DNA of 64,000 bases from an uncultured Pelagibacteraceae bacterium. GTDB lineage: Bacteria; Pseudomonadota; Alphaproteobacteria; Pelagibacterales; Pelagibacteraceae. How positions within the stretch are numbered: position 1 is the first letter of the stretch; the number at the start of each line of letters is the position of its first letter. The stretch is taken from NCBI GenBank assembly GCA_902567785.1, contig CACFOR010000003.1:109504-173503 (forward strand), given 5' to 3'. A program made the position numbers and the translations under genes. Positions 17,186-23,149 of this stretch are shown piece after piece. The notes under the pieces are model-generated. The model had not been told where the DNA came from. It saw only the letters and a list, made by a program, of their open reading frames with translations, and ran no database searches.

Positions 17186-17297
17186 AAATAATTTTTTTTA
17201 CCTATTTTCTTTTAACCGAATTAAGAGTCTATAGCGAGTAATATTAATATAAATTAAATCAGCATTATAAACAAAGATAACTATAAGAGCACAAAGT

Positions 17298-17330
17298 GGA
17301 GTTCTTTTGCCCGGTGCCCAGACCCCTTAA
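17298..17330 (-). repeat. Degraded copy of the ssrA 3' end (putative att remnant 1)
   Basis: Plus strand GGAGTTCTTTTGCCCGGTGCCCAGACCCCTTAA versus ssrA end GGGGCGTTCTGTTGCCCGGTGCCCCAGACCGCG at 22849. Confidence 0.75.
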
Positions 17331-17344
17331 TTTAATATTTAAAG

Positions 17345-17641
17345 TTAAAGCTTAACTTTGGTCAATTCAAACATTTGAACAATTTCGATACATTCATCGA
17401 AAATAGGTTTTGCTACTGGATTATTACCTGAAGCAAACTTCTTCATTTCTTCTTCATTATGAACTGACACTTTAAACATAACATAACTTTTATCTGGCGC
17501 TATTGCTGGAACTGTTTTTTCAACATGAGCAATAGTTTTTCTTACTGCCATTCCTTCATCTGATTGCATAAATCCCATGAACTTTTCAAATTTTCCTTCA
17601 CCAGATTTAAGTTTTGCTATTGCAAGCATTTCTTTTACCAT
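17345..17641 (-). CDS. Small protein of unknown function (possible dimeric alpha-beta barrel fold)
   Basis: MVKEMLAIAKLKSGEGKFEKFMGFMQSDEGMAVRKTIAHVEKTVPAIAPDKSYVMFKV...; start moved to MVKEM, after a TACTCCTTTC (minus-strand GAAAGGAGTA) Shine-Dalgarno. Confidence 0.65.
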   Translation of the reverse strand: MVKEMLAIAKLKSGEGKFEKFMGFMQSDEGMAVRKTIAHVEKTVPAIAPDKSYVMFKVSVHNEEEMKKFASGNNPVAKPIFDECIEIVQMFELTKVKL

Positions 17642-17658
17642 ATTTACTCCTTTCTTTA

Positions 17659-17811
17659 GGGGCCTTCTGTACCCCCTGAGACCCAATTTATATTATCAAA
17701 TATAGGTTAGAGCAATACTTCACTGAAAACTTCACTGAGAGTTTGACCATATTTCTAAAACCTTGCTTCTCGACTTCACTGAGAATTGGGGTTAAATTTA
17801 AATTATGAAAA
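17659..17811. repeat. Leader repeat copy A (153 bp), beginning with a degraded ssrA 3' end (att remnant 2)
   Basis: About 6 differences over ~154 bp from 19649-19802; contains three ACTTCACTGA motifs. Confidence 0.93.
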
Positions 17812-17823
17812 AACTATCTCTAT

Positions 17824-18792
17824 ATGTATTTTAATCAAAATAACAACTTTTATCATGGAATTGTATTTCATCATTTCCACGATGATGGAATTCACACAAA
17901 AGGTCAGGGTTCAATAGATAAAGATGATTTATATAAAATGATAAATTTTATAGGAAGAAATAATATTTTAAATGCTGATGAATTTTTTGAAAAATTTAAG
18001 AATAACAAACTTAAAAATAATGAAGTTTGTTTAACTTTTGATGATGCTATAAAATGCCAAATTGATATTGCTTTACCTGTTTTAGAAGAACTTAAAATCA
18101 AAAGTTTCTTTTTTGCTCATACTTCAATGTTTCAAAACAAACCAGATAATTTAGAAATTTTTAGATATTTTAGAATAAATTATTTTAATAGCGTAGATGA
18201 GTTTTATAACGATTTTTATAAAGTTTTAGATAAAGATTTGAAGTCCTTTTTTGAGAAAAATAGCGTTGTAATCAAAGAAAAAAAAATTAAATTTCCTTTC
18301 CATACAATATCAGATATTAAATTTAGATTGGTTAGGGATAATTTTTTGACCAAAAGTCAATATGAAGAAATCATGTTTTTAATGTTTAAAGAAAAACAAT
18401 TCAATCATTATGATTTTTATAAAAAACTTTTTTTTCAAAAAAGTGATTTACAAACACTTAATAATCTAGGACATTTAGTTGGTTTACATTCACATAATCA
18501 TCCAACATTATTAGAAAATTTAGGTTATGATGAACAGAAAAATGAATATGAGAGATGTTTATCTTTCATTTCTGATATTTTAAATAAACCAAAAAATGAA
18601 ATCAAATCCATGTCCCATCCTTGTGGCAGTTATAATGAGCACACACTACAAATTTTAAAAGAACTAGGAATTGAGTTAGGTTTTAAATCAATAATGACTA
18701 TTGAACCAGAAAAGGGTATGACAAAAGTTAACAATTCTTTTTTAGAAATAGCAAGAGAAGATCATTCTAATATATATGAAAGAATGAATTGA
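17824..18792 (+). CDS. Polysaccharide deacetylase (NodB-like) family protein
   Basis: VCLTFDDAIKCQIDIALPVLEELKIKSFFFAHTSMF; HSHNHP. Confidence 0.8.
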   Translation: MYFNQNNNFYHGIVFHHFHDDGIHTKGQGSIDKDDLYKMINFIGRNNILNADEFFEKFKNNKLKNNEVCLTFDDAIKCQIDIALPVLEELKIKSFFFAHTSMFQNKPDNLEIFRYFRINYFNSVDEFYNDFYKVLDKDLKSFFEKNSVVIKEKKIKFPFHTISDIKFRLVRDNFLTKSQYEEIMFLMFKEKQFNHYDFYKKLFFQKSDLQTLNNLGHLVGLHSHNHPTLLENLGYDEQKNEYERCLSFISDILNKPKNEIKSMSHPCGSYNEHTLQILKELGIELGFKSIMTIEPEKGMTKVNNSFLEIAREDHSNIYERMN

Positions 18793-19580
18793 TGAAAATT
18801 ACCTTATTTACTTCTAATAAAAATAGACACAATTATTTAATCAATTTGTTATCAGAGGTATCGGATGAATTTTATGTTATCCAGGAATGTGACACTATCT
18901 TTGAAGGGGTTGTTTCAGGTCATTATCAAGTATCTTCAACTATGAAAAAATATTTTGAAAATGTTAATAATGCTCAATCCAAATTATTCGGTAATTTATA
19001 TGTAAATAATAAAAAGAAAAATATTAAAATTTTACCTATGATTTTTGGAGATTTAAATCAATGCTCAATGAATTTATTGTCGGATTTTTTAAAAAGCGAT
19101 GTTTATGTTGTTTTTGGTTCTAGTTATATCAAAGGTGAACTCGTAGATTTTCTGGTTAAACAAAAAACAATAAATGTTCACGCTGGTGTTTCGCCATATT
19201 ATAGAGGGACTGATTGTAACTTTTGGGCATTATATGATAACAACCCACATTTAGTAGGAGCAACAGTTCATTTACTTTCTAAAGGATTGGATAGTGGTCC
19301 AATGCTTTATCACGCTATGTCTAATTTAAAAACTAATCCTTTTGAATACACAATGTCTACCGTTAAGTCAGCATTCCACTCTATCGCAGAGAGAATTAAA
19401 GATGGTTCTATTTTTACAATTAAACCCGTTGTTCAAGATAAAATTAAAGAGGTCAGATATTCAAAAAAAAGTGAGTTTACCGAAGAGGTAGTAAAAGAAT
19501 ATTTTGGAAAGAAAATAGATTTAAACAGCAAAAAATTTGATAACACTTTGTTGAAAGAACCATTTTTTTTAAATAATTAA
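18789..19580 (+). CDS. Formyltransferase family protein (Fmt/ArnA-N-like)
   Basis: INVHAGVSPYYRGTDCNFWALYDNNPHLVGATVHLLSKGLDSGPML. Confidence 0.85.
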   Translation: MMKITLFTSNKNRHNYLINLLSEVSDEFYVIQECDTIFEGVVSGHYQVSSTMKKYFENVNNAQSKLFGNLYVNNKKKNIKILPMIFGDLNQCSMNLLSDFLKSDVYVVFGSSYIKGELVDFLVKQKTINVHAGVSPYYRGTDCNFWALYDNNPHLVGATVHLLSKGLDSGPMLYHAMSNLKTNPFEYTMSTVKSAFHSIAERIKDGSIFTIKPVVQDKIKEVRYSKKSEFTEEVVKEYFGKKIDLNSKKFDNTLLKEPFFLNN

Positions 19581-19648
19581 ACCCTACTCTCCACATATCG
19601 TCTTATTTTTGTGTTTAGACTTCATCAAACTTCATTAAGGTTTAAAGA

Positions 19649-19802
19649 GGGGCGTTCTGTGCCCCCCGAGACCCAAATTTATATTATCAAATATAGGTTA
19701 TAGCAATACTTCACTGAAAACTTCACTGAGAGTTTGACCATATTTCTAAAACCTTGCTTCTCGACTTCACTGAGAATCGGGGTTAAATTTAAATTATGAA
19801 AA
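19649..19802. repeat. Leader repeat copy B (154 bp), beginning with a degraded ssrA 3' end (att remnant 3)
   Basis: Aligned by eye to 17659-17811; same position immediately upstream of the first cargo gene. Confidence 0.93.
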
Positions 19803-19824
19803 GAGGGATTAAAAAATAACTCTT

Positions 19825-20556
19825 ATGCCAAAGAGAAATCCATTAAGGTTAAGTAGATCTAGATGGGATAATTTTATTAAATGTCCCAAATGCTTTTATC
19901 TAAAAGAGAAGCATAATATAAACCCACCAGGTCAACCAGGTCATCCGATCAATTCGAGAGTTGATACACTTTTAAAAGAAGAATTCGATATACTAAGAAG
20001 TGAAGGTAAAAAACATCCTATCTTTAAAGAATATAATTTAAATTTTATTCCTTATAATAAACTTGATCCAGAGGTTCTTAAAAATTACAGGACCAACTCT
20101 AAAGGTGTAGAAGCAAAATCTCAAAAAACAAAATATACTTTATGTGGTTCATTAGATGATTTGTGGTTTAATTTAGATACTGATGAAATAGTAGTTCTAG
20201 ATTACAAAGCAACATCTAATAAAAAACTTGAAGACTACAAAACTTCTACCAAACACTATCATAAGTCTTATCTTAGACAGTTAGATTTTTATGCATATTT
20301 GTTGAAACTAAATGATTTTAAAGTACATAAAATTGGTTATTGGTTAATTTGTAATGCTGCTGATGAAAATCAAAAAACTTTTAATAATAATGTTAATTTT
20401 AAAACATCTATATTGTCATATGAATTAAAAACTGACTATATTGAAGATACTTTGATAGAGTTAGAGAAATGTCTTGAAAAAAACAAACCCCCAATTTCAG
20501 GTAATGATTGTGATAATTGTAGGTGGTTTGATGAAAGAAAAAGTATCAATATATAA
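19825..20556 (+). CDS. RecB/Cas4-like PD-(D/E)XK nuclease
   Basis: CGSLDDLW (D), VVLDYKATS (DxK), RQLDFYAYLL (QxxxY), N-terminal KCPKC and C-terminal CDNC cysteines. Confidence 0.75.
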   Translation: MPKRNPLRLSRSRWDNFIKCPKCFYLKEKHNINPPGQPGHPINSRVDTLLKEEFDILRSEGKKHPIFKEYNLNFIPYNKLDPEVLKNYRTNSKGVEAKSQKTKYTLCGSLDDLWFNLDTDEIVVLDYKATSNKKLEDYKTSTKHYHKSYLRQLDFYAYLLKLNDFKVHKIGYWLICNAADENQKTFNNNVNFKTSILSYELKTDYIEDTLIELEKCLEKNKPPISGNDCDNCRWFDERKSINI

Positions 20557-20566
20557 TTAAATATAA

Positions 20567-21001
20567 ATGAGTAGTTATTATTGCTTAGTCACATCAGACA
20601 CCGAAACAAAGTTTGCTAGAGATATAATTAATAGTAGACTTAAAGAAAAAAAATACCCGCTTTATAAGAAAACACCTTTTCTTAATGAAATTAAAAAAAA
20701 TGATGAAGTTGTATTTTATTTAGCGGGAAAAGGTGAAAACTCACAATCATTTGTAGCAACAGCAAAAATTTTATCTATTGAAACAATTAACAACACTGCA
20801 GTTATTGATCCTGATAACAATAATAAAATTGTGATAAAATATTTAAATCTCGATAATATAAATTTTTTTGAAAAAAGGATAAACATAAAATCTATTCTTG
20901 ACAATTTAAATTTTATTAAAAATAAAAAGCACTATGGAGTCAATTTAGTAGGTGGTGTATCAAAAATTAAATATGAAGATTTTAAAACAATAAATAAATA
21001 A
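20567..21001 (+). CDS. EVE/PUA-like domain protein
   Basis: SSYYCLVTSDTETKFA...FLNEIKKNDEVVFYLAGKGENSQSFVATAKI resembles EVE fold architecture. Confidence 0.65.
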   Translation: MSSYYCLVTSDTETKFARDIINSRLKEKKYPLYKKTPFLNEIKKNDEVVFYLAGKGENSQSFVATAKILSIETINNTAVIDPDNNNKIVIKYLNLDNINFFEKRINIKSILDNLNFIKNKKHYGVNLVGGVSKIKYEDFKTINK

Positions 21002-21037
21002 CTGGATCGTATCACGCTAAAATGCAAATATGCCTAA

Positions 21038-21868
21038 ATGGCATGGAATGATTCTGAAGATAAAACAAAAATTTTTCTAGACAAAAAAATATCTCAATGG
21101 GCAAAAAATAATCCTGAATTTAAAAAAATACACACTAATTCTAAAGGTGGTTCAGACTCCACTCAACCAGATATAGAAATTTTTAAAAAAAATAAAATTA
21201 TTTTTAATATTGAGATAAAAGAGGATAATTCACAAATTGGACAGTTTGTAATAATCCCAGATAACTCCTCAAAAAAATTTGTTTTAGGTGATATTAAAGG
21301 CAATAGATTAAGAACTGCTAAAATTAATGAGTATATGAATAAAAATTTCGATAATTACAATAAACCTACAACAGCGGGTTTGGTTCTTGGGTGTTCGGAT
21401 AAAATTATATACGATTGTATAAAAAATTTTTTAGAGGAGAAGAATAATAGATATATTGCTTGTAAAATTAAAGAAACTATTAAAATTATTCATTATAAAA
21501 AATTTAGTGATTTTTTTTCTGCTAAGGCGATTTATAGAAAAAAAAAGAGTGGATCTTCACCTGTATCTAGTAAATCTACTATTGATTTAAAAAAAAAAGT
21601 AAAAGATGAATTTAATTCGGTAGATGTAAAATTTACTAAAGATAAAAAATTTTTTTTTAAAAGTCAGGCAAAAAATTTACTTGGAAAATATTTTTTATTA
21701 GATGATGATAAATATTTTATATCAAAAAAAAAATATGGCGATTTTTACAGAATTACTAAAACAAGTAAGACAAATAACCCTAACGTGATCTTTGTAATTT
21801 CAATGAAAGATAAAAACAAAAAAGATAATATAGATTTATTAAAAAAGGATTTGATGGAAAATGATTAA
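21038..21868 (+). CDS. Probable type II restriction endonuclease
   Basis: QPDIEIFKKNKIIFNIEIKEDNSQIGQF fits a D-(x)n-ExK catalytic core; overlaps the start of the adjacent C5 methyltransferase. Confidence 0.65.
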   Translation: MAWNDSEDKTKIFLDKKISQWAKNNPEFKKIHTNSKGGSDSTQPDIEIFKKNKIIFNIEIKEDNSQIGQFVIIPDNSSKKFVLGDIKGNRLRTAKINEYMNKNFDNYNKPTTAGLVLGCSDKIIYDCIKNFLEEKNNRYIACKIKETIKIIHYKKFSDFFSAKAIYRKKKSGSSPVSSKSTIDLKKKVKDEFNSVDVKFTKDKKFFFKSQAKNLLGKYFLLDDDKYFISKKKYGDFYRITKTSKTNNPNVIFVISMKDKNKKDNIDLLKKDLMEND

Positions 21869-22820
21869 ATTTATTGATTTATTTTGTGGAATAGGAGGAT
21901 TCCATTTGGCAATGAGAGGCATTAAATCAAAATGTGTGTTTGCTTCTGAATGGGATAAAAATTGTCAAGATGTATACGAAAAAAACTTCAAAATAAAACC
22001 CAATGGAGACATAACAAATATTGATGAGAAAAATATTCCCAAACATGATTTATTATTTGCGGGATTTCCTTGTCAGGCATTTAGTATATCAGGAAAAAGA
22101 CTTGGTTTTGAAGATTCTCGTGGAACTTTATTTTTTGATGTTGCGAGAATTATTAAATTTCATAATCCTAAAGTAGTATTTTTAGAAAACGTTAAAAATT
22201 TCCTAAGGCATGATAATGGCAAAACAATGCGAGTAGTAAAATCTATTTTGGAAGAACTAAATTATGATGTTTTCTTCTCTTTATTAAATTCTGCAAAATA
22301 TGGAGTGCCTCAAAGCAGGGAAAGAATTTACATAGTTGCCTTCAAAAAAAATTTAAAGGTTAAAGAATTTAATTTTCCGAAACCTTCCAACAATTCGATT
22401 AGTTTAAAAAGTATTTTACTTTCAGATAAAATAACTCAGAAATATGTTATTAAAAGAAAGGACGTTTTTTTAAAAAAAATATCTATCCAAAAAGATATCT
22501 TTGGAGCATACCCGCAAAAACCAATTAGAGTTGGACATGTTAATAAAGGAGGACAGGGAGAGAGGATATATAGTGAATATGGTCACGCAACTGCAATGAC
22601 AGCATATGGTGGTGGCATAGGGTCTAAAACTGGTCTTTATCTTGTAAATAATAAAATTAGAAAACTTGCACCAAGAGAATGTGCAAGAATTTTTGGTTTT
22701 CCAGAAAAATTTAAAATTCATGAAAATTCCAATGTTGTTTATAAACAGTTTGGCAACAGCGTGGTGGTAAATGTTGTTTCTTTAATAATTAAGGAAATTA
22801 TAAAAAAGAAATTGTTTTAA
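21861..22820 (+). CDS. DNA (cytosine-5) methyltransferase
   Basis: FIDLFCGIGGFHLAMRG, GFPCQAFSISGKR, ENVKNF, QSRERIYIVAF, QFGNSVVV. Confidence 0.95.
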   Translation: MIKFIDLFCGIGGFHLAMRGIKSKCVFASEWDKNCQDVYEKNFKIKPNGDITNIDEKNIPKHDLLFAGFPCQAFSISGKRLGFEDSRGTLFFDVARIIKFHNPKVVFLENVKNFLRHDNGKTMRVVKSILEELNYDVFFSLLNSAKYGVPQSRERIYIVAFKKNLKVKEFNFPKPSNNSISLKSILLSDKITQKYVIKRKDVFLKKISIQKDIFGAYPQKPIRVGHVNKGGQGERIYSEYGHATAMTAYGGGIGSKTGLYLVNNKIRKLAPRECARIFGFPEKFKIHENSNVVYKQFGNSVVVNVVSLIIKEIIKKKLF

Positions 22821-22848
22821 AAAATAAAGAAGGAATTTTGTTTTAAAA

Positions 22849-23105
22849 GGGGCGTTCTGTTGCCCGGTGCCCCAGACCGCGCTTTCTTAAATAAATTTAA
22901 GCAGCGAGAGCAAATTTATCATTTGCAATTATATATTAGCCCGATAACGACGGAGCAATCCCGAACGAAAGAATAGCCTTTAGACACTAGTCGAATCTAA
23001 TTCACCCCCATAAGTTGTATATGGTGGAGGTGGTGGGTAATGCTCCCACGTCCTCAATGTTTATTACGAAATTCGTTTATCGTCATAGTTGGAAATCCAA
23101 CTCTA
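22849..23105 (-). ncRNA. ssrA: Two-piece (circularly permuted) tmRNA; 5' boundary approximate
   Basis: Minus strand: acceptor piece ends CACCTCCACCA (3' end 23022), 12-nt spacer, coding piece starts GGGGGTGAATTAGATTCGAC (23009); 7-bp acceptor stem GGGGGTG/CACCTCC; tag GCA AAT GAT AAA TTT GCT CTC GCT GCT TAA = ANDKFALAA*. Confidence 0.93.
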
Positions 23106-23149
23106 ATAATATAAAACTTTATTTTAAAGATTCAATTTATTTATTGTAA

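Follow-up and report, generated by a model that had tools for sequence, protein, structure and literature searches.

Introduction

The window analysed here is a stretch of 64,000 nucleotides from an uncultured Pelagibacteraceae (SAR11) bacterium (contig CACFOR010000003.1, positions 109,504 to 173,503). It carries a permuted ssrA gene, for a two-piece tmRNA, and degraded copies of the end of that gene recur in the interval between ssrA and gmd. What process placed them there, and did it bring genes with it? SAR11 are the ocean's most abundant bacteria. It is not settled how these streamlined, prophage-poor genomes acquire genes, and searches for integrons in them have been empty: attC sites were sought in SAR11 hypervariable regions and none was found (Wilhelm et al., 2007; PMC2217521).

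Results

Site copies and cassettes in the window

The ssrA gene was identified with Rfam and ARAGORN, the latter giving a permuted tmRNA with the tag peptide ANDKFALAA. Protein domains were assigned with Pfam and defence models with PADLOC. The features of the locus, listed from ssrA outwards, are as follows.

22846-23139, minus strand: permuted ssrA (two-piece tmRNA); Rfam RF01849 (222 bits) and RF04321, ARAGORN tmRNA*
22849-22873, minus strand: intact site, the ssrA gene end; GGGGCACCGGGCAACAGAACGCCCC in ssrA sense
19649-22848: cassette 1, 3.2 kb, adjoining ssrA, with defence cargo; bounded by site copies
21861-22820, plus strand: C5 cytosine DNA methyltransferase, type II restriction-modification partner; PF00145 (E 2.5e-96), MTase_II (E 1.7e-114)
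21038-21868, plus strand: type II restriction endonuclease; PADLOC REase_II (E 1.4e-20)
20567-21001, plus strand: EVE-domain protein; PF01878 (E 4.8e-7)
19825-20556, plus strand: PD-(D/E)XK nuclease, Cas4-like; PF12705 (E 4.8e-9), PADLOC Cas4 (E 8e-8)
19673-19802, minus strand: 130-bp cassette arm in cassette 1, beside the site; 98% identical to 17682-17811
19649-19673, minus strand: degraded site copy at the boundary of cassettes 1 and 2; GGTCTCGGGGGGCACAGAACGCCCC in ssrA sense
17659-19648: cassette 2, 2.0 kb; bounded by site copies
18789-19580, plus strand: formyltransferase-like protein (cassette 2); PF00551 (E 4.5e-8)
17824-18792, plus strand: polysaccharide deacetylase (cassette 2); PF01522 (E 2e-17)
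17682-17811, minus strand: 130-bp cassette arm in cassette 2, beside the site; 98% identical to 19673-19802
17659-17683, minus strand: degraded site copy at the boundary of cassettes 2 and 3
17298-17658: cassette 3, 0.36 kb; recurs in locus L088
17345-17641, minus strand: 98-aa protein of unknown function (cassette 3); 87% identical protein in L088
17298-17324, minus strand: distal site copy and array end; 89% identical to the ssrA end over 27 nt

The invariant right part of the ssrA-end site is ACAGAACGCCCC. When the ssrA end was aligned to the interval, the top three local scores were 44, 31 and 21; the maxima over 200 first-order shuffles were 22 for the top score and 17 for the third. The window genome (G000, contig C3; 820 kb, 63% complete) was searched with the ssrA region and with the repeat at 19649, and significant matches were obtained at the window locus alone. 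The 130-bp arm occupies the ssrA-distal end of cassettes 1 and 2, whose genes are unrelated; it travels with the recombination site and not with the cargo. Related arms (71-78% identity) adjoin sites in L094, L116 and L051.

The first-pass annotation, made from the letters of the window only, had described three same-strand degraded copies of the ssrA end that delimit cassettes of 0.36, 2.0 and 3.2 kb. The positions and orientation of the copies were upheld by the sequence and the shuffle comparison, as were the cassette sizes, the unrelated cargo of the three cassettes and the absence of an integrase from them. The 130-bp arm had been overlooked. No Pfam match was found for the 98-aa protein of cassette 3. 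A DNA search of a phage collection returned unrelated cytosine methyltransferases and nothing else.

Variation of the locus among relatives

Across 13 genomes of the genus, ssrA is conserved through GCCCC(T) and is then followed by a different sequence in every genome. Relics of the ssrA end lie at varied distances, for example +180/+631, +353, +458 and +1952. The flanks thyX and gmd are conserved, and the ssrA-to-gmd interval measures 0.36 kb in the almost empty G017, 1.8, 2.2, 3.0 and 3.9 kb in others, and 7.25 kb, the longest, in the window; the cargo differs among relatives. Homologues of the cassette 2 cargo were found near ssrA in G008 (80%) and G014 (71%). Cassette 3 has a counterpart in another genus (L088; 88.6% identity over 376 bp, both boundaries present), and the L088 version was found again adjoining ssrA in L248 (88.5%).

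Cassette number and content thus vary at one locus among relatives, and direct repeats of an RNA-gene 3' end bound each inserted cassette; both criteria of an additive flexible genomic island are met. The first-pass annotation had named two outcomes that would refute an insertion locus: the same cassettes in all relatives, and site copies that are terminator hairpins found genome-wide. Neither was observed, since cargo and length of the interval vary and the matches are confined to the window locus.

Exchange of single cassettes between species

Whole cassettes are shared between species at identities above those of the neighbouring chromosome on the thyX side: 97.2% over 709 bp vs 80.3% (L122/L297), 97.2% over 1,734 bp vs 85.2% (L085/L090), and 100% over 273 bp of a cassette of about 274 bp vs 74.1% (L081/L248). 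A further pair, L093/L313, shares a cassette at 99.7% over 1,051 bp. In shared cassettes identity begins and ends at the ~25-bp repeats, and the flanks are unrelated. One cassette adjoins ssrA in one genome and is third or fourth in another. Loci of one genome that occur in both collections (e.g. L084 = L289) were left out of this evidence. Single cassettes have therefore been transferred between species with exact boundaries. Recent arrival does not explain every shared cassette: that of L082/L085 is 82% identical against 96% for the chromosome.

Arrays across the family

A 25-nt pattern with at most 3 mismatches was searched in 296 family genomes, one per species, many of them single-cell or metagenome assemblies. 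It matched in at least 257, and at least 122 hold two or more copies; with the reversed pattern no genome had two or more. Tandem arrays in the fetched loci reach about nine extra site copies, and no opposite-strand copy was seen in the 20 family loci or the 80 named loci. The 240 cassettes measured have a median length of 0.88 kb (quartiles 0.49 and 1.50 kb); their sizes cluster at 0.5-1.5 kb, with precise ends on both sides. Every relative in which the cassette site was found bears the label Pelagibacteraceae, Pelagibacterales or Pelagibacter. Of 382 genomes from the same class but outside the family, 164 have a recognisable ssrA end, and 2 of these 164 (G532 and G646) have a second copy. 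That a family-wide array system exists in SAR11 goes beyond what the first-pass annotation could know.

Cassette cargo is diverse. Among 101 representative cassette proteins no Pfam family was matched by more than two; methyltransferases, trypsins, superoxide dismutase, rhodanese, inverse autotransporter and McrB-like domains are included, and a few proteins match defence models.

Some observations lie at the edge of this pattern. Second copies do not always adjoin ssrA: L086, L093, L094, L098, L120 and L128 carry cassette-type site copies on stretches without ssrA, L086 as a run of seven. Cassettes at secondary sites, or relocated arrays, would account for these. Very large inter-site intervals in L087:6215-16240 and L090:3979-17609 (ssrA-sense coordinates) hold gene clusters of sugar or surface-polysaccharide type and not single genes. 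In G646, from another family of the class, a same-strand second copy of the ssrA end lies 1.6 kb downstream (C2:86440-88066) and may be an independent case.

Anatomy, orientation and age of the sites

In ssrA sense the usual site reads arm-GGCACC(T/G)GGCAACAGAACGCCCC. In 117 non-ssrA sites the right part, ACAGAACGCCCC, is nearly invariant and variation grows leftward, as would be expected if exchange takes place at ACAGAA or immediately to its left. Some sites retain ACAGAACGCCCC alone, with a different left arm in which a GGG run faces CCC. Of 185 type-I sites, 156 have the left-arm motif GT[TC] next to them; the background rate is 10.7%. On folding three sites, the only recurrent stem was GGGC/GCCC (4-5 bp), and the site can be described as a short dyad of GGGC and GCCC with about 8 bp between them. 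There are several classes of cassette arm, which leaves room for more than one recombinase.

Genes reading towards ssrA make up 98% of the coding length in ssrA-adjacent cassettes and 81% in the others. Integrons are expected to hold small gene cassettes arrayed in a single orientation at one fixed site, and the SAR11 arrays satisfy this criterion. In 15 arrays out of 20 that were informative, degradation has gone further in the most distal copy than in the first (p=0.0014). The orientation bias and the greater distal degradation both fit insertion at ssrA.

Search for the recombinase

Profile HMMs detected no integrase in 135 array-related loci, some of which lack ssrA or come from duplicate genomes; a control integrase was recovered. 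Cassette-encoded integrases were not found by tblastn either. The integrase-bearing element that the first-pass annotation had suggested seeking in the same slot is thus missing from all loci scanned. Serine recombinases (PF00239) were found in 0 of 27 genomes, with positive controls, and the criterion of a Dehalococcoides-type DsiA/DsiB module is not met. Nor is that of an IntI-type integrase beside the array.

Most SAR11 genomes encode one resident tyrosine recombinase of 317-325 aa (for example L109:1706-2664), detected in 124 of 149 genomes that are at least 90% complete. By curated cut-offs it is not XerC, XerD or IntI, and it scores 31 bits against the integron integrase profile, for which the cut-off is 265. 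A dyad with 13-bp arms and a 7-bp spacer lies 5 bp upstream of its gene, exactly once in each of 25 genomes examined (G024:C1:674663-674695 and 24 others). Recombinase and dyad probably form a single-recombinase Xer/dif pair. The criterion of dif-type sites for the host Xer is not met by the cassettes: there is no XerC/XerD equivalog, and the resident dyad is unlike the cassette site.

A viral helper was also sought. The exact genus core matched 0 viral contigs. The family core matched 8, all of them phage-encoded permuted tmRNA genes and not attP sites. The 14-nt right half matched 93 stretches; 80 loci were read, and no attP-like site was seen beside an integrase in a SAR11-like AT-rich contig. 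The 8 viral contigs (L101-L108, from IMG/VR, one of 242 kb) carry their own permuted tmRNA with the tag ADENLALAA, and the 23-nt core at its end is that of SAR11 ssrA; in principle these genes could serve as cassette landing sites. Separately, a SAR11 genome holds, away from ssrA, an integrase followed by primase-like and terminase-small-like genes (L110:3821-8852), which may be a small prophage or satellite.

Discussion

Proposed mechanism

The 3' end of ssrA, which is the end of the coding piece of the permuted tmRNA, is very probably the insertion platform, and serial site-specific insertion there by an unidentified enzyme acting in trans is strongly favoured as the origin of the arrays. 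The repeats, the array structure and its polymorphism are shown, as are the transfer of single cassettes with exact boundaries and the lack of an integrase in the arrays. In the model, SAR11 gene-cassette arrays would have the ssrA 3' end as their fixed point of entry. A circular cassette, of the form variable arm-ACAGAACGCCCC-cassette start, would insert by recombination at or just left of the ACAGAACGCCCC that it shares with ssrA. The incoming cassette would bring the final bases of the gene, so that a new functional end is formed and ssrA stays intact, and the old end would become the far boundary, now with the cassette's own arm. Repetition would yield a tandem array, with the newest cassette usually adjoining ssrA. 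The circular intermediate is inferred, without read data. A tyrosine-type enzyme is inferred from the form of the site, a short GGGC/GCCC dyad with a centre of about 8 bp. Supply in trans by an unseen helper is likewise an inference, drawn because no enzyme was found in the arrays and the resident recombinase is an unlikely candidate.

The first-pass annotation had inferred stepwise acquisition, with the cassette nearest ssrA being the youngest and mobilised in trans. Stepwise acquisition is supported across SAR11 by the arrays and by the visible transfer of single cassettes between species. The age order held in part. It has statistical support over arrays; in the window it is blurred, since the copy that has diverged least from the ssrA end is the outermost one, at 17298, and a strict sequence of ages cannot be claimed there. 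Of the readings that are left, mobilisation in trans is the best, with the enzyme unidentified. A bolder reading, which we regard as no better supported than its negation, is that SAR11 possess a distinct integron-like gene-capture system, with the tmRNA gene as entry site, a dedicated cassette arm and a recombinase, neither IntI nor Xer, supplied in trans.

Alternative explanations

The resident tyrosine recombinase might move the cassettes from a distance, as a distant integrase would in an integron-like system. It is the sole PF00589 gene in most array-bearing genomes, it is widespread, and serine recombinases are absent from the 27 genomes searched. Against this, a separate 33-bp dyad, TTACTATTGATAA-CAATTAA-TTATCATTAGTAA, lies just upstream of its gene and is unlike the ssrA site, and site copy number does not differ between genomes without and with the recombinase (mean 1.55 vs 1.65, p=0.95). 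A dyad of its own, once per genome, makes it the probable partner of a single-Xer/dif system, and we consider it unlikely to be the cassette enzyme. Remodelling mainly by homologous recombination (natural uptake and RecA), with the repeats as old integration scars, would accord with heavy recombination in SAR11 (PMC7542561) and with the conserved flanks thyX and gmd. That reading has very little left to support it, as identity is limited by ~25-bp repeats with both flanks unrelated, the same cassette occupies different array positions, and arms are common to unrelated cargo.

The cassettes could instead be remnants of larger integrase-bearing phages or islands, reduced by deletion. ssrA is a classic target of prophages and islands. 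Islands at ssrA have been described (PMC3146451), and some of the sites here are degraded. The 135 loci without an integrase, the 0.5-1.5 kb size cluster with precise ends, and intact 274-bp cassettes that are 100% identical between distant genomes all speak against deletion, and we hold this origin to be very improbable. Unrelated terminator hairpins remained to be considered, as the ssrA end and the copy at 19649 fold into GC hairpins followed by T. The copies are confined to one locus in the genome, always in one orientation, and share 23 nt of sequence and not a mere resemblance of hairpins; the whole-genome searches refute this reading, and it can be all but dismissed. Site-specific insertion at the ssrA end remains the preferred explanation.

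Significance

The arrays are a little-described route of gene exchange in streamlined bacteria, in which the end of a tmRNA gene is repeatedly replaced and its sequence kept. The searchable site marks hundreds of single-gene cassettes, defence genes included, which can be catalogued from any SAR11 assembly. With a defined site, transfer rates become measurable and the missing recombinase can be sought.

Comparison with known systems

No report of ssrA arrays in SAR11 was found in the open-access literature searched; a prior description is not excluded, as most subscription papers lay outside the search. Additive flexible genomic islands at tRNA ends are described in Ca. Actinomarinales (PMC7771536) and as fGI-2 of Ca. 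Methylopumilus (PMC10872708). These too belong to streamlined aquatic bacteria and consist of small cassettes that each terminate in a direct repeat of an RNA-gene 3' end, with mostly unknown cargo, exchange between genera and no integrase described. The SAR11 arrays differ in their target, the coding-piece end of a permuted tmRNA, in an arm common to unrelated cassettes, in a strong gene-orientation bias and in their presence throughout a family. The tycheposon definition (large elements of 4-200 kb, at tRNA, with a tyrosine recombinase; PMC10872708) is not met by cassettes with a median of 0.88 kb, a tmRNA target and no recombinase.

The ssrA-specific genomic islands of Dehalococcoides (PMC3146451, PMC2764846) likewise lie in tandem downstream of ssrA, bounded by a repeat of its end (20 bp in Dehalococcoides) with a conserved motif beside it, and many lack an integration module. 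Half of them, unlike the SAR11 cassettes, carry a serine recombinase module (DsiB), and the islands enter the tmRNA in its T-loop region; the vcr islands are about 12 kb, and SAR11 cassettes are about ten times smaller. The dif modules of Acinetobacter (PMC6449649, PMC13141974) are also small and integrase-less and are moved by an enzyme in trans, a supply that is only inferred for SAR11. They are bounded by XerC/D sites on plasmids, whereas the SAR11 cassette site is unlike the dyad of the resident recombinase.

With chromosomal integrons the arrays share a fixed entry site, tandem small cassettes of one or two genes, a single orientation and the newest cassettes near the entry. SAR11 lack IntI, and their site, judged from three folded copies, appears to be a short dyad and not a folded attC. 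Their genes read towards the entry site, so that, unlike in integrons, no common promoter could be used there. We conclude that the SAR11 arrays are of the same general kind as the additive islands at tRNA ends and the ssrA islands of Dehalococcoides. Within that kind they form a variant, an integron-like array, without a known recombinase, built at a permuted tmRNA gene from cassettes that share their arms.
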